64,000 nucleotides of DNA from Plotosus lineatus (taxonomy: Eukaryota; Chordata; Actinopteri; Siluriformes; Plotosidae), in the NCBI GenBank assembly GCA_024760905.1, contig CM045734.1, positions 124,001 through 188,000 of the forward strand, in the 5' to 3' direction. Made by a program: the position numbers and the translations under genes. The notes beneath the pieces were generated by a model. It made no database searches, had not been told where the DNA came from, and saw only the letters and a list, made by a program, of their open reading frames with translations. Of this stretch, positions 7,838 through 61,719 are shown piece by piece. Numbering within the stretch: position 1 is the stretch's first letter; every line of letters starts with the position of its first letter.

Positions 7838-8275
7838 ATTTTCCAGGAAGGATGTCTGGACCGAGGACGAAGGCGAGTCGCTGGGCGGGGACCCCTGTGG
7901 GCAACAGAGGTGGAGGTGGCAGCAATAGTGTGCGTGGCACTGGCGGCACCAGCATCGGTTGCAGCGGCAGAGGCGTTACTGGTGGTGTCAGGCTCATGGT
8001 CAGTCAGGAGCATATCTGACTCATGGGGCCCACTGAGAATGAAGACACTGGATGAGCTTCTTCGGCAAGGTACCACGGCAGGGCCGGTGGGGTATGACAT
8101 ACAGCAGAACGTTGTAATCCCAGGTCCGTCTGTACCTGACCCATCGTTTGGCTGATGCCTTAGCTTTCTTCACCTCCATCCCGATTTCTTCTGGTGTGCT
8201 GTCTTTCATATACCCCCTCAGCAGATGGACCGAAATTCCGTCCTGGGGCTTGTCGCACCGTAAGCACTGCACATA
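7838..8275 (-). pseudogene. zinc-finger exon (exon a) of recombinase-SET gene, main part
   Basis: On the minus strand this matches exon a of the copy at 58,659-59,138: a CLRC...H zinc-finger segment, a Lys-rich region (KKAKASAKRWVRY) and a Ser/Thr/Ala-rich tail ending at a GTAAAT donor. The fourth zinc ligand Cys is replaced by Tyr (HLLRGYMK against HLMRGCMK), and a stop follows the IPH region. The remaining 5' part of the exon lies at 10,367-10,392, beyond an inserted Gypsy element. It is a pseudogene fragment. Confidence 0.85.
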
Positions 8276-8315
8276 GTGTTACGTGGTGTTCCCCTCGCTC
8301 TCTCTCTCTCTCTCT

Positions 8316-12754: not shown

Positions 12755-12952
12755 CTGAATCGTCAAACCGGCCAACAGTCAGGAGGTGCGAAGGGCAGTG
12801 GAGACTAGGGCAGCATTGCTCTTCACAGAGACGCAGAAGCAGAACGTTAGCCACTATCTGGCCCAGTCTTCTGCTGTGGCCGAGAATCATTACGGAATGC
12901 GGGCGGATGAATCCATTGTCCAAACGGCTACACTACTGGACACCCAGGGAGG
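12755..12952 (+). pseudogene. recombinase exon g' (diverged second copy)
   Basis: The exon lies between a TTCTTGCAG acceptor and a GGGTAGGT donor, and its 198 bases match the length of exon g at 15,774. It encodes the EVRRAVET region and the catalytic tail, but the conserved His of the HS...Y box is Gln (AQSSAVAENHYG); Tyr remains. The same change is in the copy at 61,522, so it predates the inverted duplication. No exons d-f precede it. Confidence 0.8.
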
Positions 12953-13055
12953 GTAGGTCTCTTCATTATCTCAAGGCAGCCATGCGTCACATTCATATTT
13001 TATGTATTATTACCAAGTTGTGCAATTTTAACCCTTACTTTCCTAAATTTTACAG

Positions 13056-13156
13056 CTTCTCCTCACCGAACAAGTCCTCGGACAGTGACCCCGATCAAGC
13101 CCACAAGCACATTGAGGTGCCTTCATGTGCCATCTTGGATGGCAAGTGTGATCCGG

Positions 13157-13207
<51 letters not shown>

Positions 13208-13225: not shown

Positions 13226-13239
13226 AACAACAACCGATA

Positions 13240-14649: not shown

Positions 14650-16646
14650 CATTTTCAACGCCCCGGAGCTGTGGAAGGCATGACGGTGAGTGCATCTATT
14701 TTAATAGCCTGAGGAAATTTGTTTTTTAGCTCGTGCTATTTTATCTGGGGTGGGGTGGGGGGGGGGGGGGGGGTTTTCACGTGTTGAAATGTATTTTTGA
14801 AAAATAATTCATTCATACATTTCCTGCCACTTCAATTCTTTTCCAGACAAAAGAGTGGGTGAACAGAAAACACAAAAACGCAAGGGTGGTGATCGGCGTC
14901 AGCCAACATAAGACGGCAACTATGCAGGTGGCCACATTTGCCCTGACCCAGGAGGAGGAAGCTGTAAGTTCTTTAACAGCTAAATATGCTCACCACTTAT
15001 GTCTCATTGTGAAAGCGATTTTTCAACTGCTTACACTATTTTACAGTCAAGAAATTGTCTCTTTTGTTCCCCAAGTGGTTTCAAGCATACTACGAACACA
15101 TTCGTCCGGGATACCTCAGAAGCAAAATTGACAATTTTTTCATTTCTTCGACTGGGAAGCCCGTTCATCGTGTCACCAACGACATTGGCCGGTTTCACAA
15201 AATGTGAGTACCTACATGAATCCATGTGCTGATGTGTAAATGTTTTGTATTACACGACGATACAAAGAAATACGACAGAGGAAAAAAAAAGATTTGTTGA
15301 AGTACATGATGTATTTCAATCGAACATTTTATACATATAATTTTAATTTGATTTTCATGTCAGATTGAAATATGGAAAAGAATGCAACATGTATTGGAGG
15401 AAAACTGATTTTAGAAAGTGATGAGGAAAAAGAATTGTAAGACTTACCTTGAAAACTTGTTGAGTAAAACTTTTTGCCACTTGTCACGTCAAAGACTTTC
15501 ATGTTGACGGCCTTGAGAATGTGCGGGTTTTATACGCCATCGTACTCTCGCAGCTGCTCCGGAGTGAATTCCCGCAGGTCCATTTTGGGCAAAGCCGAGG
15601 CCTTGTCTCCCCGGTCGGCGTCTGTGCACGATCTCCTGAGCCACTGTCAGTAAACACCGTAGCAAGCGGCCAGAAACAAAAACAACAAGCAGACGATTTT
15701 TTTCTATTTTTTTCGGTGCATCAAACACAATCATATCGCGAATAACATTTCATGTCACTTTGTCTTCTTGCAGCTACCACGTGAAACCGGCCAACAGTCG
15801 GGAGGTGCGAAGGGCGGTGGAGACTGAGGCAGCGTTGCTCTTCACAGAGACGCAGAAGCAGAACGTTAGCCACTATCTGGCCCATTCTACTGCTGTGGCC
15901 GAGCAGCATTACAGAATGCGGGTGGATGAATCCATTGTCCAAACGGCTACACTGTTGGACACCCTGGGACGGTAGGTCTCCTCATTATCTTATTTCACAA
16001 GGCAACCATGCATCGCAATCATATTTTATGTATACTTACCAAGTTGTACTATTTTAACCCTTTTAACTTTCTCTAATTTTACAGCTTCTCCTCACCAAAC
16101 GAGTCCTCGGACGGCGACCCCGATCAAGCCCGCAAGCATGTGGAGAGAAACTTTTCTGATTTCACCAGGAGCTTCCCAGTGACCAAACATGGCCAGCCTC
16201 CGTCCAAAAAGGCCAGGGCGCAGGCGGGATTTAGCGAGGGCCGTGTGCATTATGACGAGTGGCGAGCTTGTCAGTATGCAGAGAGGCAGCGGTATCTGCT
16301 ATGTAAGTACAGTACTCCGAAGCCCGAAACACTATAATGCGGATAAGCATTAATAATCTCAAACTATGCAACTTATTTACTGAGGCAAACAACTGCGGTG
16401 ACAAAATTATTCTGTTCTCTTTTTCAGCACACTTCAGTGCCAGGAAGCCAACGGTGGGGAAAGTTCAGAGGTTTTTAGAAAAAGAGGGGTGGATGGCCAA
16501 CTGTCCGAGTGCTGAGGACATCGTGAAGATGTGGACGGCAGCCCACAAGTTCACCGTCGAGACGGACCCGGCTATCATTCGGTGTGTGTCTCACCAGAAA
16601 TGGACAGGACTGGTGATCAAGGACTTCGGATCTGAAAGGGGGCTGG
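14650..16646 (+). pseudogene. recombinase-SET gene copy A (exons d-partial, e, f, g, h, i)
   Basis: The exons, with canonical splice sites, are: d end 14,650-14,685 (contains Arg I, FQRPGAVEGMT), e 14,847-14,963 (HKT lysine), f 15,076-15,203, g 15,774-15,971 (EVRRAVET and HSTAVAEQHYRM), h 16,085-16,302 and i 16,428-16,646 (ends ERGLG, the SET entry motif). Exon lengths equal those of the other copies and phases join correctly. Unlike the copy at 55,047, exon h is in frame. Exons a-c are deleted and the SET exon is missing because an RTE LINE starts at about 16,768. The recombinase catalytic residues visible here are intact. Confidence 0.85.
15448..15600 (-). pseudogene. PGRMC-like (cytochrome b5 family) exon, antisense in intron f-g
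   Basis: On the minus strand the frame encodes MDLREFTPEQLREYDGV, then a stop, then NPHILKAVNMKVFDVTSGKK and a GTAAG donor. This resembles exon 1 of membrane-associated progesterone receptor components (heme-binding cytochrome b5 fold). The same stop is in the copy at 56,676, so it was a pseudogene before duplication. It lies inside the intron between recombinase exons f and g. Confidence 0.7.
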
Positions 16647-16767
16647 GTAAGAAACCTTTAATTTTTCTTTTCAGTTTCTGCACCCTGCTCTGAATGTCAA
16701 AGTGGAGAAAGATTCACACTTTGCCAAATTGTAACGATCAACTTTTGAGGGTTTTTTTTTTTTTTTT

Positions 16768-18540: not shown

Positions 18541-19354
18541 ATAATTTTAATTTATTGCATAAGCACTTAGAACACGCACCTTAGCTGTTATGAGGTGGTC
18601 GTCTCTCTTCCCGGTTCCTGGCTCCCATTGTTGCACCTGGTATTACAACATTCTGCTGAATGACATACCCCACCGGCCCAGCCATAGTACCTTGCTGAAG
18701 AAGCTCATCCAGCGTCTTCATTCTAAATGGGCCCCGTGAGTCAGATATGCTCCTGACTGACCATGAGCCTGACACCACCAGTAACACCCTCTGCCACTGC
18801 AACCGATGCTGGTGCCGCCAGTGCCACGCACACTATTGCTGCCACCTCCAGCTCTGCTTCTGGAGCCCCTGCCCAGTGACTCGCCTTCGTCCTCGGTTCA
18901 GAGATAATTCCTGGAAAATGTAAAAACAGTTCCGTGATATTTCCAGTTTGCCGACCTTTCACAACCCAGTTAGCAGCACCTGGGCGACAGTGACAACCCA
19001 CGGAGAGTGGGGCTTGAACCTCCAACCTTAGGCTTAGTGATCCAGCACCTTTACCAGCAGGCTGCCACTGCCCCAAAGCATTTATTAAAATGTAATTTTT
19101 AATCTCACTCTCTGTTTTACAAACCACATCCCACCCGACCACTTCTATACGCATAAAGATGAAGGAGGCCGGTCTATATGAGAAATTCTGCGATGACACT
19201 GTGCTCCTCTTGGACTGTAAATAAATGACACCCAGGGTGTCGCAATTGCCAACAGAAGGTGATGTGTCATTATGAATGGTCATTTATGACTGGTTACATG
19301 CGCTAAAATATGCTTTTTAAAAACATTCAATAGACAGTCTTACTCATTAATACA
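18541..19354 (+). pseudogene. recombinase-SET gene fragments (exon a end, exon b) with SINE
   Basis: About 18,655-18,920 carries the C-terminal part of exon a on the plus strand (NDIPHRPSHSTLLKKL then a stop). A SINE with a GGCTTGAACCTCC B-box region lies at about 18,935-19,085 in reverse orientation. Exon b follows at about 19,125-19,262 (MKEAGLYEKFCDDTVLLLDC then a stop). It ends in AT-rich sequence into which ERV2 inserted. A paralogue is at 43,220-43,572. Confidence 0.7.
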
Positions 19355-26588: not shown

Positions 26589-26618
26589 CTGCTCGTCGGG
26601 GTATCTCTGTGGGGTGTG

Positions 26619-26621
26619 TCA
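26619..26621 (-). promoter_or_regulatory. in-frame TGA between gag and pro (readthrough candidate)
   Basis: The sense context is CAACAATGACACACCCCACAG, with protease in the same frame downstream. It is identical in ERV3 (47,286-47,288). Gammaretroviruses make Gag-Pol by stop readthrough, usually at UAG; here the stop is UGA. Confidence 0.65.
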
Positions 26622-34058: not shown

Positions 34059-34061
34059 TTT

Positions 34062-37090: not shown

Positions 37091-38482
37091 ACACAGACAC
37101 AATGTTCCTATGACACTATGAACGGGCTTCCCAGTCGAAGAAATGAAAAAATTGTCAGTTTCGCTTCTGAGGTATCCCGGACGAATGTGTTCGTAGTATG
37201 CTTGAAACCACTTGGGGGACAAAAGAGACAATTTCTTGACTGTAAAATAGTGTAAGCAGTTGAAAAATCGCTTTCACAATGAGACATAAGTGGTGAGCAT
37301 ATTTAGCTGTTAAAGAACTTACAGCTTCCTCCTCCTGGGTCAGGGCAAATGTGGCCACCTGCATAGTTGCCGTCTTATTTTGGCTGACGCCGATCACCAC
37401 CCTTGCGTTTTTGTGCTTTCTGTTCACCCACTCTTTTGTCTGGAAAAGAATGGAAGTGGAGGGAAATGTATGAATTAATTATTTTTCATAAAGACATTTC
37501 AACATGTGAAAAAAAAAAAAAAAACCCCAGATAAAATAGCACGAGCTAAAAAACAAATTTCCTCAGGCTATTAAAATAGATGCACTCACCGTCATGCCTT
37601 CCACAGCTCCGGGGCGTTGAAAATGTTTCAACACCAGGAGAGCTTCGCAGTAGTAGCGATAGGTGGTCTTCTCTGACTCGGAGACCTCAAGGTTGGTGAT
37701 GAATTTCCCGAATGTAAGGAGCATGTCGTGTTTGGCCACCCTCAGAATCTTCTGGCAGTCCCTGACACTCCGTGTTCCTTCCATCAGCCCTTCATATCTA
37801 GATTTGATTTCATTAAAAAAATAAATAAATGAATAAAAAAACCACATTTACGATTGTAGTCATAAACAGAAAAAGGGCAATACAAAACGCATAGAAAAGG
37901 CAAAGATTTGCCTCGTTTTGCAGACGTCCTTCGAATAAGACTTCGAGACGGGCTTTTTCATCATCTGTAGAAATTCCTTGAAGGCCTGGAGGTTGTCACG
38001 GAGGTCTTTGTCTGCCATCGTCAGGTCCAGCCTACTTTTCAAGTAGTCGACAAACCTGATCATATTCTTTAAATAGTTTAATACTGTGGCTGCACTCATT
38101 TCTGTGCGGCGGAGGCTGCTGAGGTACTCCCGTGATTGTTGGCTCTTACTTAAGAAGTCCATTCTCAGTTCATCCCCGGTCGGCTGCAGGTACCGCAGGA
38201 AACGTGACACATTGTCGACCTTTGAATAAGGATAACGAGAAAGAAATATTAATATTAGCATCGCACCAAATAACAGGACGTGTGTGACTGGTTCCGAAAA
38301 ACCATTCATGATGACATATCACCTCCTGTTGGCAATTGTGGACACCCAGGGTCTCACGTAGATACTTTTTAAAGTCCAAGAGGAGCACAGTGTCATCGCT
38401 GAATTTATCATATAGACCAGCCTCCTTCATCTTCATGCGTACAGAGGTGGTTGGGATGGGAAGTGTCCTGTAAAACAATGAG

Positions 38483-38485
<3 letters not shown>

Positions 38486-38557
<72 letters not shown>

Positions 38558-38570
38558 CAGAGAGACAGAG
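38486..38570 (+). repeat. (AG)n and (ACAG)n microsatellite
   Basis: About 22 AG repeats followed by six or seven ACAG units, just upstream of exon b's acceptor in copy B. The same place in copy C has only a short GAGAGA tract. Confidence 0.95.
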
Positions 38571-38595
38571 ATTAAAAATTACATTATAATAAATG

Positions 38596-38752
38596 CTTTG
38601 GGGCATTGGTGGCCTGCTGGTAAAGGTGCTGGATCACTGAGACTAAGGTTAGAGGTTCAAGCCCCATTCTCCAAGGTTGTCACTGTTCCCCCGGTGCTCC
38701 TAACTGGCTTGTGAAAGGCCGGCAACTTGGAAATATCACCGACACGTACTTA
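38596..38752 (+). mobile_element. tRNA-derived SINE in intron a-b (copy B)
   Basis: The head GGCATTGGTGGCCTGCTGGTAAAGG and B box GGTTCAAGCCC look like a tRNA-derived promoter, and the tail ends at CTTGGAAATATCACCG. An orthologous copy sits in the same intron at 58,505-58,655, so insertion preceded duplication. Confidence 0.75.
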
Positions 38753-39239
38753 CTTTTTCCAGGAAGGATCTCTGAGCCCAACGTCCTGATTCGAGGAGGA
38801 AGGAGAGTCACTGGGCTGGGACCCCTGTGGGTCCACACAAGCAGAGCTGGAGGTGGTAGCAATAGTATGCGTGGCACTGGCGGCACCAGCATCGGTTACA
38901 GTAGCATAGGTGTTACCGGTGGTGTCAGGCTCAGGGTCAGTCAGGAGCATATCTGACTCACGGGGCCCATTGAGAATGAAAAAGCCACGCTGTACGAGCT
39001 TCTTCAGAAAGGCAATGCGGCCGGGCCGGTGGGGTATGTCATTCACCAGATCCTTGTAATCCCAGGTCCGGCCGTACCTGACCCATCGTTTGGTTGATGC
39101 CTTAGCTTTGCTCACCTCCATCGTGATTTCTTCTGGTGTGCTGCCTTTCATACACCCCTTCATCAGATGGACCGAAATTCTGTCCTGGGGTTTGTAGCAC
39201 CTTAAGCAGTGAACGTAGTTGCGCTCAGGGATCCTAAAA

Positions 39240-40633: not shown

Positions 40634-40665
40634 TATCGGTTGTTGTTGAAGCCATGCTTAGTGAA

Positions 40666-40734: not shown

Positions 40735-41078
40735 GCACATGAAGGTACCTCAATATGCTTGTGGGCTTGATCGGGGTCACTGTCCGAGGACTTGTTCGGT
40801 GAGGAGAAGCTGTAAAATTAGGGAAAGTAAGGGTTAAAATTGTACAACTTGGTAATAATACATAAAATATGATTGTGACGTATGGCTGCCTTGAGATAAT
40901 GAGGAGACCTACCCTCCCTGGGTGTCCAGTAGTGTCGCCGTTTGGACAGTGTAGTGTAGCTGCTCGGCCACAGCAGAAGAATGGGCTGCGTCTCTGTGAA
41001 GAGCAACGCTGCCCTAATCTCCACTGCCCTTCGCACCTCCTGACTGTTGGCCGGTTTGACGATTCAGCTGCAAGAAGA
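40735..41078 (-). pseudogene. exons g' and h' (copy B), with internal deletions
   Basis: Exon h' starts at the acceptor at about 40,811. Exon g' spans about 40,916-41,069 and lacks two short segments relative to 61,522-61,719, including part of the HS...Y catalytic region. It has the same diverged acceptor region (CTGAATCGTC) as the other g' copies. Confidence 0.7.
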
Positions 41079-43399: not shown

Positions 43400-43572
43400 A
43401 GACTACATCCCACCCGACCACTTCTATACGCATAAAGACAAAGGAGGCCGGTCTATATGAGAAATTCTGCGATGACACTGTGCTCCTCTTGGACTGTAAT
43501 AAGTGAGACCCTGGGTGTCCGCAATTGCCAACAGAAGGTGATGTGTCATTATGAATGGTCATTTATGACAAT
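43400..43572 (+). pseudogene. exon b fragment (recombinase-SET gene)
   Basis: A TTTTACAG acceptor precedes KEAGLYEKFCDDTVLLLDCNK and a stop. It closely matches 19,115-19,270; both are followed by GAATGGTCATTTATGAC. ERV3 begins immediately after. Confidence 0.75.
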
Positions 43573-44240: not shown

Positions 44241-44618
44241 ACAGGTGAGCAGAACCTGTTTAAATTGAACTCTGCATATTGACTAAACTAAAAACTGTGT
44301 CCTCTCCGGAAGTTTGAAGGAAAAGGATTAAAAGAGTTGTATGAGAACCTAATTTTAAGATTTAAGGTAAATTAAGAGAAATAAGAGATTTAAGAGAGAA
44401 TAGACGCGCCTTGGTGGTGGCGTACCCTCCCGGTCTCTGACGAGGGGCCGTGGTAAAGGCTGGGTTGGAGTCCCGGGGATTGAGGCTCCCCAAAGTACCA
44501 CGTCAGTGCTATATAACTGTACGTCGTAGTCGGGTGAAAGGCCCTCAACGGAAAGCATGTTGAAAGCATGCGTCTATTTGGGTGAAAGGCCCCCCAATAC
44601 GAGAGGTATTGGAAGCAT
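44241..44618 (+). other. ERV3 leader: splice donor and two hairpins
   Basis: The donor is ACAG|GTGAGC at 44,245. Two hairpin units lie at 44,532-44,618, against four in ERV1 and five in ERV2. The first has its stem damaged by a GAAAGCATGTT duplication; the second is the AATAC/GTATT type. Downstream are three related GTGACGTTAATTGTATTG repeats (about 44,638-44,775). Confidence 0.65.
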
Positions 44619-45099
44619 TAAAGAAACTAATAGTGTGTGATATTAATTGTATTGTTTTCTGTTTTATGTGTGTGTTGTGTGGCCACGTGCGTGACGTTAA
44701 TTGTATTGTTTTCGATTACATGTATGTATTGTATTGTAACGTGCGTGACGTTAATCGTATTGTTTTCTATTTCATGTGTGTACTGTGTTGCAACGTGTGT
44801 TGTGTGTGAGTGAAAGAGGGAAGTGGGAAGAATAAAATTCAGAGGTGTCGAGAGGGACGCTGACGTTTGACAGTGTCTTAACCGGGCAGAGAAACAGACA
44901 GAGGAAACCTAGCGGTGTTAACATAATCTGTCTGTGCGATGGAAACCTAACGGTGACAACACAAGCCGCCTGCCGTGGTTAATTGGGTCATTCGCGCAGC
45001 CTAGCGCTGACGGACTGACTGGCTGTGACCGTCTAAACAGTCCCGATCCGGGAGAGTGAACGGGTGTACCCGCGCTCTCTGGCCTCTGAGTTAAGAAAT

Positions 45100-47288
45100 A
45101 TGGAGGGTGAATTTGATAAAGAAATAAATGAACGGGGGCTAGGTCATGAACCCCTGAAGCCATTATATGCACAGATTGAGAACACCTTGAAGTCAGTGGA
45201 ACTGAAGAGCACACTGAAACAGAAAAATAAAGTTGTAGATGAAGCCAGACGAAAGCTGCATGAGCTGGTGAAATCTAAAAACAAACAGTTGGGGGACAGT
45301 GGCCACTTAGGATCCTGGTTATGGGAAAAGGTTAAAGAATATTCAGAAAAAGCCAGAGAAGCGAGAGAGCAGGGAGAGAAGGCGAATTTGATGTCTAGAT
45401 CCATGCTGAAAAAGAAGGTGGAGGAAATGGAGAGCGCCCAACAGGGGTGGACGGATCTCGCGGTCTGCTGGCAGAGTGTCACTCATCTTCACCACTCCCA
45501 GTTGAAGGAGACGACCCCGAATGTCATCGGAGCGGTAACAGCACCTAACACTGAACCTACGCGCCCCCCACCATACGCACCCTTAACACCCAGCGTTAAC
45601 AGTGTATACCCCACTCTATATATCACCTCAGGGTCCCTACGAACTGAGGGCGGCGAGACTTGCGAGAGCCCGCGCGCACCATCCCCCCCGACTGCACACA
45701 CACCCATCCCCGATCAAGTGCACAAATCGCCCGTCCACCGGGAAGGGGGAGCTGTTATGGATACATCACACAACGAACCTGAACCATTCGCCGCGCGTCA
45801 ACTTAGAGCTGAAATAAAGAGACAGGTAGGAGGTGACGGAGAACATCATGAGGGAAGGATGGACGTGAGGGAGATAGACAGTGACGTCAGGGATGAATTC
45901 CCGGGGAATGCCACTAGAGGGCCAAATCCCAGACCCAAACATAAGATTTATGCCCCTGGGAAGGCGACATTAAAGATAAAGGGGGTATGGGAGGGCGACA
46001 AAAAGGTAGAGGAGGAAAATAAACATGAAGATCTGACAGAGTTGAACGAGCCAGAGAGCAATTTAGAAGAGTATGCAGACATATTGGAGGAGGAATTAAT
46101 TAGAACGGCAAATCATTCATTGGATTTGGCCAGAGAGGTGGAAGGACTATTAACACACAGGTCGATACCGCGACGGTCCGTGCGACTCAGACAGAAAAAA
46201 TGCCTGACAGGGTCGGGACGCACTACACAATTTCCCTTGACCACCATGCCGGGCATGACCCCGAAATACAAACCTTTTGGGGTGGGAGATATACAGGCCA
46301 TAGTGGACAAACTGCCGCCGGTAGTAGACGGAGGGAATATGTGGCTGGCCAAATTGGACACACTCACAGCCTTAGCAATCTAATCTTAGCAACCTTAGCA
46401 ATCGGAGATTTCAGGGCCATAGGAGCACGGTGCATGGCCCCCACCGACTTTAGAGGCATCGAGGAAGACGCAAACACTACAATAGTTCCTGACAGCACAC
46501 CATTCACCGCACACAGCACCGAGATAGGCCAGGCAATGAGGAGTAAATTCCCACTGCCCCGGTCTACGGTCATGCCAAAACTGAAGTGGAACCCTGACCA
46601 GAACCCGAGAGAGTACCTAACCCAATCCACGGAGACGTGGACTAAATTGACGGGTTGTCACCCAGGTAATCAGGGCATACAGATGGAATGGTTCCGCCAG
46701 GCCGTACGAAACGGGGTGCCCGAGGCGGTGAAAAATCTAATGATAAATAACCCGGACATGGCTGGGGCTCACTCTCATGTCTGGGATAAACATTTGGTGC
46801 ACCACCTGACCCAGGCGCAGGACAAGAACCAAAGTGATGAATCAGAAATAAAAGAGTTGCAGTCACAGCTCCTAAAACTCCAATTAATTAAGGCTAGACA
46901 AGAAGCGAGTGACAAAAAACAGAAACCTCGCGAACAACATAGACAAATGACAGCTGAAGCTTTGGATCCATACCCCGTCCCTGCTTGGCAGCCACCTCAA
47001 TACACCACATATCCTCCACGCCAACCACAGTACAGAGGCAGAGGCAGGGGCATGCAGAGGAGAGGTTACAGGGGAGTACCTGGGGGGGGGGGGTGGTACG
47101 GGGGCAACCAGGTTTGCTATATCTGTGGCGGTCCAAACCACTGGGCCCGGGATTGTCTGGTCCGCGTACAAAGAGGGGATGACGAACAACGAGGGAAAGG
47201 CCGAGGAAGTTCGATGCCACAACTCCCGCCGCCAGCTGGTCAACCCACTCAGCTTTCTATGTGGGGAGACTACGAACACCAACAATGA
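45100..47288 (+). pseudogene. gag: ERV3 gag
   Basis: The ATG at 45,100 begins MEGEFDKEINERG, and matrix is open with the late motif PPPYAPLTP (about 45,560). Capsid suffers compensating frame changes between about 46,170 and 46,400, including a duplicated TTAGCAATC. The frame from 46,200 then runs through capsid (LPRSTVMPKLKWNPDQNP), a charged coiled region and a nucleocapsid with one CCHC knuckle (CYICGGPNHWARDC, about 47,115). It ends at TGA 47,286, in frame with protease. Confidence 0.9.
47286..47288 (+). promoter_or_regulatory. in-frame TGA between gag and pro (readthrough candidate)
   Basis: gag (frame from 46,200) and protease (ORF 47,319-47,945) are in the same frame, separated only by this TGA in the context CAACAATGACACACC. 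The arrangement is the same in ERV2. Confidence 0.65.
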
Positions 47289-49285
47289 CACACCCCACAG
47301 AGACGCCCCGACGAGCAGGTGACGGCAGAGCCTGTACTGTCGGTCACAGTAGAAAACAGATCAATGACTTTTTTGGTGGACACAGGCGCCACTTTGTCCT
47401 CCATTTGCACCATGCCAAAGAGACATTGTTTAACACAGCACTCGATTACTGTGATGGGTTTCTCTGGGGTACCAACCACGCTGCCTACAAGTATGCCTTT
47501 GGACACTCGTATAGGCCTCCAAAGACTGTTACACTCGTATGTATATTCCCCTAACACACCAACCAACTTACTAGGAAGGGACCTGTTGGTTTCCCTCGGA
47601 GCAACCATCATGTGCGAACCAGATGGACTGACTGTCTCATTTCCAGACGGCACCAAGTTGTCATGCGGCCACTCGCCCGATACGATCACAGGACAGTACA
47701 TAATGCAGCCTCTCGCTGAACCACAGGCCGACATCTACTGGGGTGTACTACAACCAGAAACACAGGCACGCCGGGGGGGGGGGTTCTCTCCACCTTTCTC
47801 CAGTGGAAACCCTGGGTCTCTCAGATTCATCCCTATGTCTCGCCTCTCGATCCACCACACGTCACTCTGTTGTATGATAGGCACTCGAATCTATGTCACG
47901 AAGACGATTTTGCTTCCCAAATTGAGGGGAAAGAATGGCAGATAATTACACGTAATATTTATGTGGCTCCCGAGGGGGTAGTGGCGGGGGTAGATCTAAC
48001 ATTCGAACAAATGTCATGGTATGAAATGTCAGACGAGGCTGCACCCCATGTCTCACTGGCATTGCATCCAGCACATCAGGCTAAAGAATTGGGCACTATC
48101 GTTAAAAGGGCAAAGGCCCACACTGATTGGACACTCACGCAATGGCGACATGTCACCTTTTTCCCCCACCATAAATATGTACTGCATTGAGATGACTGCC
48201 TCAGATACGGCGGTCTTAGAACACGCACACATATCTAGGCATCATGGAAGGGAAAAAACTGACCATCCGGAGGCAGCGGCATTATTGGACGAACTTCCAG
48301 ACACATTGTGGGCACAAGGCCCTACTGATGTCGGACTAGTACAATGCAAACCCGTTACTTTTGAACTTACCTCGACAGAGCCAATTTGGATCAGACAATA
48401 CCCGCATAAACCACTAGCTGAGGCAGGGATTGCGGACACAGTAGCAGGTTTATTAGAAAAGGGGGTACTGGAACCTTCGTCCTCTGATTGGAATACACCT
48501 ATACTCCCTGTAGAGAAGAAGGGGACAGGAAAGTATCGTATGGCGCACGATTTGAGGGCCATTAACGCCGCCCTCCTAACGGCCACAGCTCCGGTGCCTA
48601 ATCCATATGTTGCTCTGACCTGTCTCGACCCGGCACATCGCTGGTTTACTTGCATAGATTTGGCTAATGCTTTCTTTTGTCACCCACTGACAGAACACTG
48701 CAGGGACATTTTCTCTTTCACTTTCCGAGGCACTCAGCTCCGATACACTCGACTTCCGCAGGGGTTCGCACTGTCACCAGGTATTTTCAATCAGGTTTTG
48801 AAACGCGTCCTAGAGGGATGCACTCTCCCGGAAGGGGTCACTCTGGTCCAGTATGTTGATGATTTACTGCTGGCGACGCCCACGGCTGACCTCTGTCTGC
48901 AGGGGACGTCGCTAACCCTTCAACATCTAGCTCAGGCGGGGTTTAAGGTCAGTAAACATAAATTACAGATCTGTCGTAAGCAAGTCTCCTTTTTAGGGCA
49001 CCAAATCTCTCAGAAGGGGTCAGGCCTAACACCACACCATAAATCAGCCATTTTGCATCACCCCAAACCACGCCTAGTTAAGGACATGCTATCTTTTCTA
49101 GGCCTCACAGGTTATAGCCGTCATTACGTCCCTAACTACACAGGGTTAACCTCTCCACTGCGGGACTTAGTGAAGGAAAAAGGCATGCATAACCTCTCAG
49201 CCACGCTCAACTGGACAGCAGACGCAGAGGAATCGTTCATTCTTCTCAAACAGGAGTTGGCCTCAGAGGCTGATTTGGCAACCAT
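47289..49285 (+). pseudogene. pol: ERV3 protease and reverse transcriptase
   Basis: Protease carries LVDTGATLSSI (about 47,375) and NLLGRDLLVSLGA. A long G run at about 47,771 shifts the frame; a second shift near 48,165 restores it. From 48,186 a continuous frame covers RT: LPVEKKGTGKYRM, FTCIDLANAFF, LPQGFALSPGIF, the active site VQYVDDLLL (about 48,853) and the connection (FLGLTGYSRHYVPNYTGL). It stops at the deletion near 49,285 before RNase H and integrase. Confidence 0.9.
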
Positions 49286-49640
49286 TTCACCATAGGAACC
49301 ATTTCCCCGGACTGGTGTAATTCCACCATGAACGTGTCGGATTGGTTCAATTCCACCACCCTCACTAAAGCCCGCGCGGATATTTGGTGGTACTGCGGAG
49401 GGGCGGTGTTACATCCCACGCTCCCTCCTAACTGGACAGGCACCTGCACCCTGATCACTTTACTCATCCCTATCACGATTGTACCGGCCTCAGCGTCCGA
49501 CCTATTAGGACTCCTTTCACGCATACGTGTAAAGTCCATCTCCTCGTTCGACATTAAGCGCACGCGCCGGTCGATTCCCGCGCTTGGGAAGCAAGGCTTT
49601 CAAGGGTCTCCCACTTATATCGATGCAATCGGCGTCGCCT
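49286..49640 (+). pseudogene. env: ERV3 env SU C-terminus
   Basis: The ORF from 49,328 matches the end of ERV2 SU: NVSDWFNSTTLTKARADIWW, a hydrophobic stretch and the KRTRR cleavage-site region, then the start of the fusion-peptide region. TM is absent. The frame runs on into flanking DNA to 49,723. Confidence 0.85.
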
Positions 49641-49644
49641 CGAT

Positions 49645-49797
49645 CTTAACACTGGTTACATGCGCTAAAATATGCTTTTTAAAAACATTCAATAGACAGT
49701 CTTACTCATTAATACAGTACTAATGTATTAATGATGAAGAAAATCTTAACTTTTTTCTGTGATATTTATTGCTAATAAAATATAAACATTATACATC

Positions 49798-49856
<59 letters not shown>
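49645..49856. repeat. AT-rich block 3 start and (TA)n
   Basis: GGTTACATGCGCTAAAATATGC...TAATACAGTACTAATG repeats 19,293-19,358 plus 30,529 onward, without an ERV at that point. A (TA)n tract covers 49,800-49,856. Confidence 0.85.
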
Positions 49857-49859
<3 letters not shown>

Positions 49860-50643
49860 TAAAACCTCCGCTGAAGAACGCTTAAGATCACGAACTTTTC
49901 GCCTCAAGAACATTAAATTTGCGAGCATATAGTCTCTGCTGACGAACTAGTTTTCGGCGGACGAACCAAACCACGCGGTCGAACAGCGCCACGGTGGCGG
50001 CCACGAGAAGTTGACGCACGCTCACGGCGTCACAGTTCGTCACACCCCTTTCTTTGAGTGGGAAGTGGTTTGTGTTTGCTAGACATTTTGGACCATATTG
50101 AGTGTACTTTTGCTATTATGGGACCGAAAAAGACCCCACCACAGGCGGAGATCATTGAAAAACACGAACGAGGTGTGCGTGTTTGTGTGACTCAGCGTCC
50201 CAGTACCAGTACAAGGATACAAGGAAGCTATTAAGGGTGTGTGGCTAAAGGTGTTTCCAAACAGTAGGCGTTTCCAAACTCTCCTTCCAAACAGTAAGTC
50301 CCTCCCTCCCTCCCTCCCTCCTCCTCCTCCCACTCCATTCCATTCCATTCCATCAAGCCGTCAACTACCATCACAAAGGTAAATAAAACGACTTTTATTA
50401 TACAGTACAGTTTATTTCTTTAATTACAATACAATAGACATTTATTATACATAAAATAAGGTATATTTTTGTGTAGTTTTAAGTCTTATTTAGGAGAGAA
50501 TTATGTTTTATGGGGACCTGGGAACGAACGGATTGTTCTCATTTTAATGGTTTCTTATGGGAAATAACTGTTCGGAAGACGAACTTTTCGCCTCACACAC
50601 ACTTTCAGGGAACCAATTATGTTCGTGAGCTGAGGTATCACTG
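49857..50643 (+). mobile_element. non-autonomous pogo/Tigger-like element
   Basis: A 787-bp copy of the element at 13,550, in the opposite orientation, inserted at the end of the (TA)n tract. The ends are CAGTAAAACCTCCGCTG and, inverted, CAGTGATACCTCAGCTC. It retains the EIIEKHERGVR transposase-like segment (about 50,140). Confidence 0.88.
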
Positions 50644-53039: not shown

Positions 53040-53880
53040 GTGTGCTGGTAAATCAGATGTACACAGGGCTGACTTACCTTTTCTCCACGACAGAGGAAAA
53101 GGCCGCCCAAAAACGAGTGACCAAAAACAACCAATGAAGATAAGGAGGCTGATCTATGTGAGAAATCCTGCGATGACACTGTGCTCCCTTTGGACTTTAA
53201 TAAGTGAGACCCTGGGTGTCCACAATTGCCAACAGAAGGTGAAACGTCCTAATAAATGGTTTTTCAGCACCAGTTGCAGCACTGTCACGTACGTCCTGTT
53301 TCTTGGTGCGACGCGAATATTAATATTTCTTTCTCGTCATCGTTATTCAAAGGTCGACGATGTGTCACATTTCCTGTGGTACCTGCAGCCGACCGGGGAT
53401 GAACCGAGAATGGACTTCTTGAGTAAGAGCCAACAATCCCTTCAGTACATCAGCAGCCTCCGCCGCACAGAAATGTGTGCAGCCGCAACAATAAATTGTT
53501 GAAAGAATACGATCGGGTTTTTCGACAGGCTGGACCTGACGATGGCAGAGAAAGACCTCCGTGACAACCTCCAGGCCTTCAAGGAAATTCTACAGCCGAT
53601 GAGAAAGCCTGCCTGGAAGTTTAATGGCCCTTTTTTCTGTTTATTACTACAACTCTAGGTATGAACGACTGATGGAAGGAACACGGGTGTCAAAGCCTGC
53701 CAGAAGATTCTGGGGGTGGCAAAACCCGACACGCTCCTTACATCGGGAAATTCATCAACGACCTCGCGACCGAGCCAGAGAAGACCACCAATCGTGACTA
53801 CTGCAAATCTCTCCTGGTGTTCAAACATTTTCAGCGCCCAGGAGCTGTGGAAGGCATGACGGTGACTGCATCTATGATCA
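53040..53880 (+). pseudogene. recombinase-SET gene fragment (exons b, c, d)
   Basis: Exon b lies at about 53,135-53,250 (damaged). Exon c at about 53,353-53,615 (VDDVSHFLWYLQPTGDEPRMDFL, stop after TINC). Exon d at about 53,658-53,865, starting after an ACAACTCTAG acceptor (YERLMEGT) and ending FQRPGAVEGMT in a shifted frame. Arg I codon CGC is retained. Several indels and stops make it a pseudogene. Confidence 0.8.
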
Positions 53881-55046: not shown

Positions 55047-55459
55047 CTAGCTGTCAAGCCACTCCAGGTCAAGTCCTTCTCCCTTAAACGATTTTCTCTT
55101 GACCCCATAGTCAAAAAGCAGCTCACCGTCTACAGGAATGTCTTTTATGGCTCTGAACAAGATCACACATCCTTGTTCTCACCGCTGTCTTTGAGCACGC
55201 AGTGCAGTGGCTTTAAATTAGCTCTTTTCGAGGAATGGTTGATCCTCCGTCCAAATGTGTCTTTACCTGGGTGACACTCGCACGAGGAAGACTTGGCATC
55301 GACGCAGAGATCATTCCGCCCAGATTTAAAGAAAAAAAAGGTAGGCCGGCTGGATGTTGGGGTCATTCATTTTCGCACGACCCTCAGCAGCGGTGATCAC
55401 CTTTCCGTGGTAGTCACACACGATGTCGCCTTTAGAAAACGGCTTGGCTGCGACTACAC
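55047..55459 (-). pseudogene. exon j: KMT5A-like SET domain
   Basis: Following ERGLG from exon i, the exon encodes VVAAKPFSKGDIVCDYHGKV, then GRRINHSS, then ELLFDYGVKRKSF and ends LEWLDS-stop at 55,047. The GxG, YxG, NHS and ELLxDYG motifs are the SAM-binding and catalytic signature of SET lysine methyltransferases, and spacing resembles the single-SET histone H4K20 methyltransferase KMT5A. A run of eight T at about 55,332 (one too many) and an extra TG near 55,157 break the frame, so this copy is not functional as read. Confidence 0.85.
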
Positions 55460-55623
55460 CTGGAAACAAGAGAACATGACATTTTCACTTTGAGTGGTTT
55501 AAAAAAAAAAAAAAAAAACCCTCAAAAGTTGATCGTTACAATTTGGCAAAGTTTTAATCTTTCTCCACTTTGACATTCAGAGCAGGGTGCAGAAACTGAA
55601 AAGAAAAATTAAAGGTTTCTTAC

Positions 55624-56184
55624 CCAGCCCCCTTTCAGAACCGAAGTCTTTGATCACCAGTCCTGTCCATTTCTGGTGAGACACACACCGAATGATAGCC
55701 GGGTCCGTCTCGATGGTGGACTTGTGGGCTGCCGTCCACATCTTCACGATGTCCTCAGCACTCGGACAGTTGGCCATCCACTCCTCCTTTTCCATTAACC
55801 TGTGAACTTTCCCCACCGCTGGCTTCCTGGCACTGAAGTGTGCTGAAAAAGAGAACAGAATAACTTTGTCACGGCAGTTGTTTGCCTCAGTAAATAAGTT
55901 GCATAGTTTGAGATTATTAATGCTTATCCGCATTATAGTGTTTTGGGCTTAGGAGTACTGTACTTACATAGCAGATACCGCTGCCTCTCTGCATACTGAC
56001 AAGCTCGCCACTCGTCATAATGCACACGGCCCTCGCTAAATCCCGCCTGCACCCTGGCCTTTTGGACGGAGGCTGGCCATGTTTGGTCACTGGGAAGCTC
56101 CTGGTGAAATCAGAAAAGTTTCTGTCCACATGCTTGCGGGCTTGATCGGGGTCGCCGTCCGAGGACTCGTTTGGTGAGAAGAAG
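55624..56184 (-). pseudogene. exons h and i: linker between recombinase and SET
   Basis: Exon h (55,968-56,184) encodes an acidic/basic linker (SSPNESSDGDPDQARKHVD, FTRSFPVTKHGQPPSK). A lost A relative to copy A shifts its end. Exon i (55,624-55,842) encodes KPAVGKVHRLMEKEEWMANC, AEDIVKMWTAAHK, CVSHQKWTGLVIKDFGSERG, whose last part is the strand entering SET. I do not recognise a named domain in the first half of exon i. Confidence 0.8.
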
Positions 56185-56297
56185 CTGTAAAATTAGAGAA
56201 AGTTAAAAGGGTTAAAATAGTACAACTTGGTAAGTATACATAAAATATGATTGCGATGCATGACTGCCTTGTGAAATGAGATAATGAGGAGACCTAC

Positions 56298-57775
56298 CGT
56301 CCCAGGGTGTCCAACAGTGTAGCCGTTTGGACAATGGATTCATCCGCCCGCATTCCGTAATGCTGCTCGGCCACAGCAGTAGAATGGGCCGGATAGTGGC
56401 TAACGTTCTGCTTCTGCGTCTCTGTGAAGAGCAACGCTGCCTCAGTCTCCACCGCCCTTCGCACCTCCCGACTGTTGGCCGGTTTGACGTGGTAGCTGCA
56501 AGAAGACAAAGTGACATGAAATGTTATTCGCGATATGATTGTGTTTGATGCACCGAAAAAAATAGAAAAAAATCGTCTGCTTGTTGTTTTTGTTTCTGGC
56601 CGCTTGCTACGGTGTTTACTGACAGTGGGTCAGGAGATCGTGCACAGACGCCGACCGGGCAGACAAGGCCTCGGCTATGCCCAAAATGGACCTGCGGGAA
56701 TTCACTCCGGAGCAGCTGCGAGAGTACGACGGCGTATAAAACCCGCACATTCTCAAGGCCGTCAACATGAAAGTCTTTGACGTGACAAGGGGCAAAAAGA
56801 TTTACTGAACAATTTTTCAAGGTAAGTCTTACAATTCTTTTTCCTCATCACTTTCTAAAATCAGTTTTCCTCCAATACATGTTGCATTCTTTTCCATATT
56901 TCAATCTGACATGAAAGTCAAATTAAAATGATATGTAAATAATGTTCAATTGAAATACAGCGTGTACTTCAACAAATCTTTTTTTTTCCTCTGTCGTATT
57001 TCTTTGTATCATCGTGTAATATAAAACATTTATACATCAGCACATGGATTCATGTAGGTACTCACATTTTGTGAAACCGGCCAATGTCGTTGGTGACACG
57101 ATGAACGGGCTTCCCAGTCGAAGAAATGAAAAAATTGTCAATTTTGCTTCTGAGGTATCCCGGACGAATGTGTTCGTAGTATGCTTGAAACCACTTGGGG
57201 GACAAAAGAGACAATTTCTTGAATGTAAAATAGTGTAAGCAGTTGAAAAATCGCTTTCAGAATGAGACATAAGTGGTGAGCATATTTAGCTGTTAAAGAA
57301 CTTACAGCTTCCTCCTCCTGGGTCAGGGCAAATGTGGCCACCTGCATAGTTGCCGTCTTATGGTGGCTGATGCCGATCACCACCCTTGCGTTTTTGTGTT
57401 TTCTGTTCACCCACTCTTTTGTCTGGAAAAGAATTGAAGTGGCAGGAAATGTATGAATGAATTATTTTTCAAAAATACATTTCAACACGTGAAAAAAAAA
57501 CCCCCCAGATAAAATAGCACGAGCTAAAAAACAAATTTCTTCAGGCTATTAAAATAGATGCACTCACCGTCATGCCTTCCACAGCTCCGGGGCATTGAAA
57601 ATGTTTCAACACCAGGAGAGCTTCGCAGTAGTAGCGATAGGTGAACTTCTCGGACTCGGAGACCTCAAGGTTGGTGATGAATTTCCCGAATGTGAGGAGC
57701 ATGTCGTGTTTGGCCACCCTCAGAATCTTCTGGCAGTCTCTGACACTCCGTGTTCCTTCCATCAGCCGTTCATAT
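56298..57775 (-). pseudogene. exons d-g: tyrosine-recombinase catalytic domain
   Basis: Exon d ends HFQCPGAVEGMT where copies A, B and 53,850 have FQRPGAVEGMT: the position of box I Arg, changed to Cys by CGC to TGC. Exon e has the HKT lysine (ISHHKTATMQVATFAL). Exon f has AYYEHIRPGYLRS and SSTGKPVHRVTNDIGRFHK. Exon g has NSREVRRAVET (box II Arg candidate) and AHSTAVAEQHYG with the His...Tyr nucleophile box. This order and spacing match tyrosine recombinases of the Crypton/phage-integrase fold, but the domain is split by introns as in a host-type gene. Confidence 0.8.
56676..56821 (+). pseudogene. PGRMC-like exon, antisense in intron f-g (copy C)
   Basis: The frame from ATG 56,676 (MPKMDLREFTPEQLREYDGV, stop, then NPHILKAVNMKVFDVT) ends at an AAG|GTAAG donor. 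Same premature stop as at 15,448-15,600. It resembles exon 1 of PGRMC1/2. It is intronic and antisense to the recombinase gene. Confidence 0.7.
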
Positions 57776-57881
57776 CTAGATTTGATTTCATTAAAAAACA
57801 AAACAAAACAAAAAAAACACATTTACGATTGTAGTCATAAACAGAAAAAGGGCAAAACGCATAGAAAAGGCAAAGATTTGC

Positions 57882-58437
57882 CTCATTTTGCAGACGTCCT
57901 TCGAATAAGACCTCGAGACGGGCTTTTTCATCGTCTGTAGAAATTCCTTGAAGGCCTGGAGGTTGTCACGGAGGTCTTTGTCTGCCATCGTCAGGTCCAG
58001 CCTACTTTTCAAGTAGTCGACAAACCTGATCATACTCTTTAAATAGTTTAATACTGTGGCTGCACTCATTTCTGTGCGGCGGAGGCTGCTGAGGTACTCC
58101 CGTGATTGTTGGCTCTTACTTAAGAAGTCCATTCTCAGTTCATCCCCGGTCGGCTGCAGGTACCGCAGGAAACGTGACACATTGTCGACCTTTGAATAAC
58201 GATGACGAGAAAGAAATATTAATATTAGCATCACACCAAGAAACAGGACGTGTGTGACTGGTTCTGAAAAATCATTCATGATGACCTATCACCTCCTGTT
58301 GGCAGTTGTGGACACCCAGGGTCTCACGTAGATACTTTTTAAAGTCCAAGAGGACCACAGTGTCATCGTTGAATTTATCATATAGACCAGCCTCCTTCAT
58401 CTTCATGCGTACAGCGGTGGTTGGGATGGATTGTGGC
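57882..58437 (-). pseudogene. exons b and c: recombinase core-binding domain
   Basis: Exon b encodes TTAVRMKMKEAGLYDKFNDD...LRETLGVHNCQQE. Exon c encodes VDNVSRFLRYLQPTGDELRM, SLRRTEMSAATVLNYLKSM, FVDYLKSRLDLTMADKDL. The helical pattern with T-x-x-NYLK..I.F.DYL matches the SAM-like core-binding domain that precedes tyrosine-recombinase catalytic domains. Both exons are open. Exon c ends ATGAG|GCAAAT, a GC donor. Confidence 0.75.
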
Positions 58438-58504
58438 CTGTAAAAAATGCAAAAAAAGAGAGAGAGAGAAAAAGACAAAAATCAAATTATAATACATGTT
58501 TTGG

Positions 58505-58655
58505 GGCAGTGGTGGCCTGCCGGTAAAGGTGCTGGATCACTGAGAGTAAGGTAAGAGGTTCAAGCCCCATTCTCCCAATGTTGTTGTGCGCCCCCCCCGT
58601 GCTGCTGACTGGCTTGTGAAAGGCCAGCAACTTGGAAATATCACTGTCACATACT
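58505..58655 (+). mobile_element. tRNA-derived SINE in intron a-b (copy C)
   Basis: GGGCAGTGGTGGCCTGCCGG head and GGTTCAAGCCC B box; orthologous to 38,596-38,752. Confidence 0.75.
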
Positions 58656-58658
58656 TAC

Positions 58659-59138
58659 TTTTTCCAGGAAGGATCTCTGAGCCCAACGTCCTTATCCGAG
58701 GAGGAAGGAGAGTCACTGGGCTGGGACCCCTGTGAGTCCACACAAGCAGAGCTGGAGGTGGCAGCAGTAGTGCGCGTGGCACTGGCGGCACCTGCATCGG
58801 TTGCTGCAGCAGAGGTGTTACTGGTGGTATCAGGCTCAGGGTCAGTCAGGAGCATATCTGACTCACGGGGCCCATCGAGAATGAAAAAGCCACGCTGTAC
58901 GAGCTTCCTCAGAAAGGCAATGCGGCCGGGCCGGTGGGGTATGTCATTCACCAGATCCTTGTAATCCCAGGTCCGGCCGTACCTGACCCATCGTTTGGTT
59001 GATGCCTTAGCTTTCCTCACCTCCATCGTGATTTCTTCTGGTGTGCTGGCTTTCATACACCCCCTCATCAGATGGACCGAAATTCTGTCCTGGGGTTTGT
59101 AGCACCGTAAGCAGTGAACGTAGTTGCGCTTCGGGATC
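58659..59138 (-). pseudogene. exon a: CCHC zinc finger and Ser-rich region
   Basis: After a pyrimidine-rich TTTTAG acceptor: RNYVHCLRCYKPQDRISVHL then MRGCMK gives C-x2-C-x10-H-x4-C. Then KAKASTKRWVRYGRTWDYKD and a Ser/Thr/Ala/Asp-rich tail ending SWKK at a GTAAGT donor. The 160-codon exon is fully open. The finger is probably the DNA- or protein-binding N-terminus of the gene product. Confidence 0.8.
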
Positions 59139-59965
59139 CTAAAAGAGAACGACAACAACATGATCAGGTCATGGGTTCAAGCCCAGTAAACAAATGTATG
59201 TATTAAAGGACTAGATAGAAACAAGTATGGATACAGTACTAGATAAAATAAAATTAGGTAACAACTTGTTATAAACCTGACAGCTTTATTTTTTATTGAC
59301 ACTTATGTTATATGTACTTGGGCTATTAAGTTACATTTTCTGATCAGAATCCATTACTTTTCTGAAGCTTCCTCAAGTAATCTCATTTAATATTTGTCTC
59401 ACCTCTTCTCAGCTTCTCCAGCCATCATGGAATGAAGTGCAAAAGAGTAAAAATTCCAAGTGACCTTAACACAGACACGTTCCAGGTAAAGATAAAACGG
59501 GGAGTGGACAAACACATAATTTATTTTTTCTCTGTTATGAGGATTGGCTCAACCCCCGAATGACACACCCAAACCCCTCAATATACATGCACCTACACCC
59601 CATGTGGTAATTAACATGGCTCCTCTTTGATGTCAGGTTTGCTGCACTGTGTGTGTGTATGTATCTGGGGTTGGGGTGGGGGCTTACCATTAGGCCACGA
59701 TAGCCCTGGGTGGCTGAGTGTGTGTGTGTGTGTGCGTGTGTATGTATATATATATATATATAGATAGATAGATAGATATATAATGTGTGAATTTATGCAA
59801 CCATTATAAGCAGTGATAATTTTAAGTTATTATTGCATAAGCACTTGTTTGTGTAGCTCTATCTGGGGATAGAAAACGCACATTATCTATTATGAGGTGG
59901 TCGTCTCTCTTCCCGGTTCCTGGCTCCCATTGTTGCATACAGCTTACAAATCCGGCAACAAAATA
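59139..59965. other. upstream intron and LINE-like remnants
   Basis: Matches 39,240-39,850. It contains TG and TA/TAGA microsatellites (59,650-59,780). No start exon for the recombinase gene is recognised here. Confidence 0.55.
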
Positions 59966-60958
59966 CATTAAAACCGCAGCTGAAGAACGCTTAAGATCAC
60001 GAACTTTTCGCCTCAAGAACATTAAATTTGCAAGCATATAGTCTCTGCTGACGAACTAGTTTTCGGCGGACGAACCAAACCACGCGGTCGAACAGCGCCA
60101 CGGTGGCGGCCACGAGAAGCTGACGCACGCTCACGGCGTCACAGTTCGTCACACCCCTTTCTTTGAGTGCGGAAGTGGTTTGTGTTTGCTAGACATTTTG
60201 GACCATATTGAGTGTACTTTTGCTATTATGGGCCTGAAAAAGACCCCACCACAGGCGGAGATCATTGAAAAACACGAACAAGGTGTGCGTTTGTGTGACT
60301 CAGCGTCCCAGTACCAGTACATGGAACAAGGAAGCTATTAACCCCTTACCCGGCAGAGACGAGTATACTCGCAATCACCCAAATTGTATTTTCCAGTCAT
60401 TGACGAGTTAACTCACCAAAACTTACGCTTTCAAAACCAGAGGGAAGCGGCTTTACCTGTCATTTCTATTGATGCCTGAGGATGTTATCGTACACTAGTC
60501 ATCATCATACGCCTCAAAAAAATGAACTATGGCATCTCAAGGCAACGTTAGACAAGAGGTAAGCGGCGAAACGTTTTCGACTCAGTAACCCGCAAAGAGT
60601 CAAAGGGGGAGTGTCGCGCTCTTTAGAATCGGTACTCTCAGTCTCGTATTTTACGATTTCCTTGAAATTTCTCGGCATCCCTTATCCCAATGGATAACAG
60701 TGATGACAATGTGATGACAAAGTGATGATATTTCTTTAATTACAATACAATAGCACATTTATTATACATAAAATAAGGTATATTTTTTTGTGTAGTTTTA
60801 AGGCTTATTTAGTAGAATATTGTGTTTTATGAGGACCTGGGAACGGATTATTCTCATTTTAATGGTTTCTTATGGGAAATAAATGTTCGGAAGACGAACT
60901 TTTCGCCTCACACACACTTTCTGGGAACCAATTATGTTCGTGAGCTGAGGTATTACTG
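59966..60958 (+). mobile_element. pogo/Tigger-like element carrying a second insertion
   Basis: TA duplications at 59,964-59,965 and 60,959-60,960 flank CATTAAAACCGCAGCTG (diverged end) and, inverted, CAGTAATACCTCAGCTC. Same target site as the element at 13,550, so insertion preceded the inverted duplication. A plus-strand start GLKKTPPQAEIIEKHEQGVR lies at about 60,226. About 390 bp of foreign sequence replaces part of the interior. Confidence 0.88.
60338..60728. mobile_element. possible piggyBac-type fragment nested in Tigger element
   Basis: At TTAA (60,338-60,341) the sequence switches to CCCCTTACCCGGCAGAGACG followed by AGTATACTCG. A TTAA target with a CCC-rich end and a GAGTATACTC palindrome suggests a piggyBac/Looper-type terminus. 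The other end is not recognisable and the Tigger sequence after it resumes with a deletion. Confidence 0.45.
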
Positions 60959-60960
60959 TA

Positions 60961-61268
60961 CTTGTAAGCTTCCACTGATTTGTAAGCTTTTAACTCTTTG
61001 CCAGTAAATGGCGAAATGGAGACGGACCGTGGACAAGATATGTACAAAGATCCAAGTAGGCAAAAGCAGGAAGGGAAGAATGGTCGCATTTTAACACATT
61101 CCTAAACATTGACTGCGGCATTAGATATGGATCTGCAATCCCCAGCTGCTTTATTTTACTCAGATAGCTTGCCGTCTGGTCACCCGTCAGATGATTGACA
61201 ACGTCTGACGATATTAAAGTGTCATTGCTTTTGTCCTCGACACTCGCATATTTTGCTTTCGCGGTCAT
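60961..61268 (-). pseudogene. SWIM/YqaJ-type first exon, copy C
   Basis: ATG at 61,268 opens MTAKAKYASVEDKSNDTLIS, open for 92 codons to 60,990. The shifted frame then encodes FTGKELKAYKSVEAYK up to the Tigger insertion. Its last codons and donor lie beyond the element at about 59,945-59,965. Confidence 0.55.
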
Positions 61269-61344
61269 TATCGGTTGTTGTTGAAGCCATGCTTAGTGAA
61301 TCGTGGGTGTGTGTGTTCTGGATCACACTTGCCATCCATGATGG

Positions 61345-61719
61345 CACATGAAGGTACCTCAATGTGCTTGTGGGCTTGATCGGGGTCACTGTCCGAGGAC
61401 TTGTTCGGTGAGGAGAAGCTGTAAAATTAAGGAAAGTAAGGGTTAAAATTGTACAACTTGGTAATAATACATAAAATATGATTGTGACGCATGGCTGCCT
61501 TGAGATAATGAAGAGACCTACCCTCCTTGGGTGTCCAGTAGTGTAGCCGTTTGGACAATGGATTCATCCGCCCCCATTCCGTAATGATTCTCGGCCACAG
61601 CAGAAGAATGGGCCAGATAGTGGCTAACGTTCTGCTTCTGCGTCTCTGTGAAGAGCAATGCTGCCCTAGTCTCCACTGCCCTTCGCACCTCCTGACTGTT
61701 GGCCGGTTTGACGATTCAG
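61345..61719 (-). pseudogene. exons g' and h' (copy C)
   Basis: Exon g' 61,522-61,719 (198 bases) with correct splice sites and the His-to-Gln change (AQSSAVAENHYG). Exon h' from 61,418 (FSSPNKSSDSDPDQAHKH). Inverted partner of 12,755-13,150. Confidence 0.8.

Follow-up and report, generated by a model that had tools for sequence, protein, structure and literature searches.

A tyrosine recombinase fold joined to a KMT5A-like SET domain in a predicted multicopy protein family of ray-finned fishes

Near one end of contig CM045734.1 (C7 below) of Plotosus lineatus (assembly GCA_024760905.1; 1.33 Gb in 30 contigs) lies a chain of exons that appears to encode, in one protein, a tyrosine recombinase (YR) and a SET methyltransferase domain resembling KMT5A. 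Is this a true fusion, and does it belong to a host gene or to a mobile element? The chain was first described in a sequence-only reading, made by a model, of a window of 64,000 nucleotides (C7:124001-188000; coordinates given without a contig are positions in this window). Our analyses support the view that recombinase and SET domain are truly joined in one protein. We further consider it probable (about 0.7) that the sequences represent a host gene family, present in multiple copies in ray-finned fishes, which captured a tyrosine recombinase fold and is expanding by segmental duplication.

The ten exons with matching splice sites and phases that had been claimed on the minus strand (59138 to 55047) were confirmed, and the outer ends of exon a (59138) and exon j (55047), as derived from alignment, are identical to those given in the sequence-only reading. 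That reading overlooked a first coding exon on the same strand (59403..59428), which encodes MMAGEAEKR with its ATG and is followed by the donor GTGAG. The sequence of this exon, with at most 5 edits, is present at 13 of the 20 loci L009-L028, and the peptide is similar to MAGNAEKK, the N-terminus of a homolog from Syngnathus typhle (P0039). The upstream exon makes the gene complete, with eleven exons in all. Exon a (58659..59138) encodes a zinc-finger-like motif (CxxC...H....C), a helical region and a low-complexity linker. The core-binding region of the recombinase begins in exon b (58293..58437), and exon c (57882..58189), which has sub-threshold Phage_int_SAM matches, encodes the core-binding (SAM-like) domain. 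The catalytic domain is spread over exon d (57568..57775; Arg I position), exon e (57306..57422; beta-hairpin Lys in HKT, the strands being present in the model), exon f (57066..57193) and exon g (56298..56495; Arg II, His in AHST and Tyr in HY). Exons h (55968..56184) and i (55624..55842) form a conserved linker, which runs into the KMT5A-like SET domain of exon j (55047..55459). All introns are GT-AG except that between exons c and d, which is GC-AG; the GC donor of exon c recurs in 15 of 16 aligned copies, this one included, and is GT in L018. The copy named in the sequence-only reading is itself a pseudogene: its Arg I position reads QCPGAV as opposed to QRPGAV in intact copies, exon h has one base less than in intact copies and so shifts the frame, exon j is frameshifted and carries stops, and the joined exons contain 9 internal stops. 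The claimed exon chain is real, but the copy in which it was recognised is dead.

A SET-family profile scan of the genome gave 45 matches, 17 of which were assigned to the family under study (YR-SET). Sixteen of these lie within C7:52,953-681,645 and one at C7:5,809,313; 13 of the 17 have no internal stop, and all 17 loci, taken as ten-kilobase stretches, hold exon j. The number 17 is a lower bound, as the scan overlooked a decayed SET exon on C17 (L026). We aligned 16 of the 17 copies, the named copy among them, and left out L021, which has only exon j and part of exon i in order. Six of the aligned copies (L010, L011, L013, L016, L018 and L022) are free of internal stops over the ten exons; in-frame deletions affect L011 and L022, and in L013 AT replaces GT after exon e. 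The remaining three (L010, L016 and L018) are fully open, the ten exons forming one open reading frame of about 808 codons. The window is a single decayed stretch within a cluster near one chromosome end. Among the matches listed in a genome-wide copy search, in which 125 of 194 candidates were scored, there are partial copies on C22 and C24, one place on C16, and decayed copies on C17, whose exon c shows 69-78% identity and most of which contain stops. The one C17 copy that was read, L026, keeps exons a to j, including a broken SET exon. The C17 copies, at C17:0.2-9.6 Mb, look like a second, older set over one chromosome end.

A protein search with L010, in which only the 7,992 candidates sharing most words with the query were scored, returned 59 homologs, and 22 of them span 97-100% of the query. 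Among these 22, identity to L010 is 57% in Festucalex, 52% in Anarhichas, 49% in Osmerus, 44-50% in cyprinids, 40% in Polypterus and 34% in Paramormyrops. Full-length fusions are predicted in bichir, elephantfish, carps, smelt, eelpouts and pipefish, under record names such as 'uncharacterized', 'hypothetical', 'si:dkey-23a23.2' and 'KMT5A'. As far as predicted proteins can tell, the pairing occurs in distantly related ray-finned fishes, and proteins that join exons g-i with exon j exist as predictions, which supports the fusion proposed in the sequence-only reading. Three alignments were made with rows picked mainly by length: A1 (L010 and 23 of the 59 hits), A2 (52 of the 59) and A3 (31). 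The zinc-finger-like motif of exon a is seen in most rows of A1. Over its 24 rows, the linker shares on average 46% of its residues with L010, the two recombinase parts share 50 and 49%, and the SET domain shares 58%. For Polypterus the respective values are 48%, 39% and 58%, while in Festucalex the linker is lower, at 44%, compared with 65-66% in the recombinase parts and 73% in the SET domain. In one homolog, P0114, the fusion stands as a single 840-residue open reading frame on a contig of 2,790 bases; this would fit a spliced transcript, though it may also be a processed copy. With a profile built on the recombinase part, 60 of 5,100 candidate proteins were recognised, belonging to fishes, to two frogs (P0087 and P0095) and in some cases to records without a species. 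Both frog proteins retain the catalytic pentad by eye, and P0095 extends into the linker and ends before the SET domain. We also noted by eye that P0039, listed as an isoform, has the zinc-finger-like part, the core-binding part and the SET domain and misses most of the recombinase catalytic domain.

The recombinase part was recognised by its fold. No curated recombinase family scored above its cut-off in ten proteins (L010, P0001 and eight more), which gave sub-threshold Phage_int_SAM matches at most; rows for XerC/XerD in NCBIfam lay well under the cut-off in 2 of 5 proteins, and DUF3504 was absent among the best 25 of 43 families listed for 52 members at E<=1. Since SET chains filled the structure search of the full-length model, the model of the SET-less protein P0058 was used for this part. 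The core-binding and catalytic fold of the tyrosine recombinase superfamily was found in the AlphaFold models (first 29 Foldseek rows, VIA), as the sequence-only reading had anticipated, and by these models the middle of the protein groups with the Cre/Xer tyrosine recombinases. The TM-scores are low because the two domains are differently placed. With positions set by alignment and by a motif pattern that we take to be the canonical one, the R-K-R-H-Y pentad is complete in 7 of the 24 rows of A1, and at least one residue is missing in the other 17. The Plotosus copies L010, L011, L013, L015 and L016 have the complete pentad; L018, though fully open, has Asp in place of the catalytic Tyr. The recombinase part is kept between species, often without its catalytic residues.

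The SET part matches the Pfam SET family (E 7.7e-14), and its best solved relative, by sequence as well as by fold, is KMT5A/SETD8; the domain is of the KMT5A-like type that had been called. In the prokaryotic library NCBIfam, this part found a bacterial SET-containing protein far under the cut-off. Residues are numbered here along what we take to be the human SET8 sequence. The equivalents of Y245, R295, N298, H299 and Y336 are all present in L010. These five are complete in 8 of the 24 rows of A1, the R295 equivalent being present in all 24, and they occur together with the complete pentad in five rows, L010 included; by motif, both sites are also kept in L011, L013, L015 and L016. The five SET residues are incomplete in all nine cyprinid rows of A1, two of which (P0005 and P0011) keep the pentad. 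Some of the losses of catalytic residues could be due to faulty gene models. At the Y334 position, where a Tyr of the monomethylation type would be expected, 19 of the 24 rows have Phe and one has Tyr. According to a published study, Y334F converts SET8 from a mono- to a dimethyltransferase (PMC6214909), and Phe at this position therefore predicts dimethylation.

Seven Plotosus copies were compared in 21 pairs, and five pairs were tested for an excess of synonymous differences over expectation; the resulting p-values ignore the relatedness of the copies and gene conversion. As evidence we take only the three pairs with no copy in common, where the one-sided p-values for the SET domain are 0.0084, 1.3e-5 and 0.0075, and those for the recombinase are 0.023, 0.45 and 0.073. 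The other two pairs gave 0.0009 and 0.0016 for the SET domain, and 0.22 and 0.038 for the recombinase. The linker and exon a showed no signal of purifying selection in the tested pairs. It is clear that the SET exon is under purifying selection, and for this part only. In a tree of 32 rows (28 homologs and 4 Plotosus copies, chosen mainly by length), the Plotosus copies sit beside the pipefish Festucalex (support 100/99), a placement that, taken by itself, would suggest a syngnathid as the probable host. Related fishes group together on inspection, and there are two clades that each contain cyprinids and percomorphs, certain forks being weak; the long branches of Polypterus and Austrofundulus join each other. 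In other fishes, contigs of equal length and locus tags that nearly follow one another point to apparent clusters.

We favour a host gene family because its copies cluster at a chromosome end, the duplicated units are larger than the gene, the gene contains introns, the tree groups related fishes, other fishes appear to have clusters of their own, and catalytic residues are frequently lost. Two options had been offered in the sequence-only reading: capture of a recombinase by a host gene that spreads by segmental duplication fits these data better, and capture of a chromatin writer by a transposon fits them less well. Under the second option, a Crypton-like DNA transposon of YR type, recent or still living, would use a captured KMT5A-like SET domain to shape chromatin at its target or at its own copies. 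Several observations speak for such an element and count against a host family, namely the numerous copies and fragments, some of them on other chromosomes, the whole pentad and SET motifs retained in five Plotosus copies (L010, L011, L013, L015 and L016), the pentad of the two frog relatives, and the fact that homology between L026 on C17 and the C7 copies stops near the gene at either end. However, the element would have to carry eleven exons, and flank alignments of the C7 copies show duplicated units that extend beyond the gene on both sides, with no fixed element ends seen among the C7 copies compared. Moreover, most of the copies matched are found at one end of a chromosome, related fishes group in the tree, and 17 of the 24 rows have an incomplete pentad. 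Taken together, we regard a transposon as an unlikely explanation, if one to be taken seriously.

Could the joined gene be a product of annotation? A decayed recombinase element beside a KMT5A-like gene might have been fused by prediction programs and by the sequence-only reading alike; many of the fish records are automatic predictions, and in one of them (P0034) an NLR-type protein is attached. Against this stand the identical order of parts and the conserved linker from Polypterus to percomorphs, the 6 of 16 copies that are open across ten exons, and P0114 on its contig of 2.8 kb, so that an artefact is very improbable. A chance chain of exons was likewise considered, and is ruled out by the open copies and the distant fish homologs. 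We think it equally far-fetched that intact members form an active host recombination system, cutting and rejoining DNA at their own arrays and so driving the expansion while the SET domain marks the site. The full pentad in five Plotosus copies and in 7 of the 24 rows would agree with such a system, as would the dense, rearranged arrays on C7, but even the open L018 has Asp for its catalytic Tyr, and ordinary unequal crossing-over accounts for the arrays.

If the sequences are indeed a host gene family, the recombinase fold, by analogy, would mainly bind DNA and in some copies perhaps still cut it, and the DNA-bound fold would position the SET domain. Where its active site is intact, the SET domain probably methylates Lys20 of histone H4 on nearby nucleosomes, with Phe at the Tyr334 position favouring the dimethyl state. 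Proteins that have lost both active sites, as in 7 of the 9 cyprinid rows of A1, may act as binders only. The family would grow by clustered segmental duplication and decay quickly. A bolder proposal, to which we give little credence, is that intact members are double enzymes, in which an active recombinase recognises specific DNA (mobile elements or their own arrays) and the SET domain adds H4K20 dimethylation. They would then constitute an old genome-defence or array-maintenance system of fishes, expanding and being lost in clusters like KRAB zinc fingers.

The decay of the cluster is apparent in the window itself, where at least seven full or partial copies had been claimed and ten were found (3 large and 7 fragments). 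The second large copy (37111..39223, minus strand) has exons a-f, with f partial, is truncated at its 3' end and has first-exon sequence upstream at 39550; the third (14847..16648, plus strand) has exons e-i and lacks a-d and j. The fragments on the plus strand comprise exons b-d with a stop inside (53142..53861), exons a-b (18635..19221), exon g with part of h (12762..13116) and exon b (43408..43503); those on the minus strand comprise exon a (7840..8278) and exon g with part of h (40749..41060 and 61358..61712). Adjoining the g-h fragments, at 60900-61300, 40180-40660 and 13200-13550, there is a recurrent exon-like frame, KAYKSVEAYKY..., which we presume to resemble fish proteins that precede YqaJ-type nuclease domains. 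A second gene was considered at 60-63 kb, where only fragments were found. Another recurrent frame (13958-14251, 49854-50234 and 60048-60341) is similar to the N-terminus of what we take, from motif, to be a Tigger/CENP-B type transposase. By eye, gag/pol/env-like frames of endogenous retroviruses occupy 1200-5500, 20000-29400 and 44500-49700, and the blocks at 24637-29433 and 44532-49279 are mutually inverted copies. Frames resembling reverse transcriptase and endonuclease of non-LTR (long terminal repeat) retrotransposons are found at 16694-18499 and 31752-34064, one of them starting near 16770, at the end of the e-i copy. At 6112-7741 there are tandem repeats with a unit of about 148-150 bases; among the loci compared, this 148-base repeat of the window matched only L023, whose repeats are related.

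What is new here is the recognised architecture, the sequences themselves being already in databases. Many fish genomes share this architecture, an old and widely kept vertebrate join of recombinase fold and histone methyltransferase, which broadens the theme of host genes capturing transposon enzymes to a tyrosine recombinase with a chromatin writer. The family also provides a KMT5A-like active site in which Phe naturally replaces Tyr, and indicates that certain fish records labelled KMT5A are not KMT5A. No description of a recombinase-SET fusion was found in the open-access literature as far as it was searched, subscription papers being outside its scope; among the results on Crypton domestication in vertebrates, PMC3212892 and PMC10380595 were consulted. 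The zebrafish locus si:dkey-23a23.2, whose name several homologs bear, belongs to the same family; this is a locus name, for which no paper was found in the open-access literature.

SETMAR (Metnase) consists of a SET domain and a mariner transposase. Like it, the fish fusion joins a SET methyltransferase to a DNA enzyme of mobile elements, probably for DNA binding. Unlike SETMAR, it contains a tyrosine recombinase instead of a DDE transposase, its SET domain is KMT5A-like, the recombinase comes first and the SET domain last, and the gene is multicopy. SETMAR is listed in a structure table of PMC3529403. The H4K20 monomethyltransferase KMT5A/SETD8 is nearest to the fish SET part by sequence and fold, and the fish proteins differ from it in their recombinase and zinc-finger-like regions and, for 19 of the 24 rows, in having Phe where SET8 has Y334. 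The Crypton-derived DUF3504 genes (KCTD1, KIAA1958, ZMYM2/3/4, QRICH1 and WOC) have all lost the catalytic Tyr, according to PMC3212892, in whose text 'SET domain' and 'methyltransferase' have 0 occurrences. Like these genes, the fish fusion would represent a host protein with a captured tyrosine recombinase, often with lost catalytic residues; unlike the DUF3504 genes, some members of the fish family keep the pentad.

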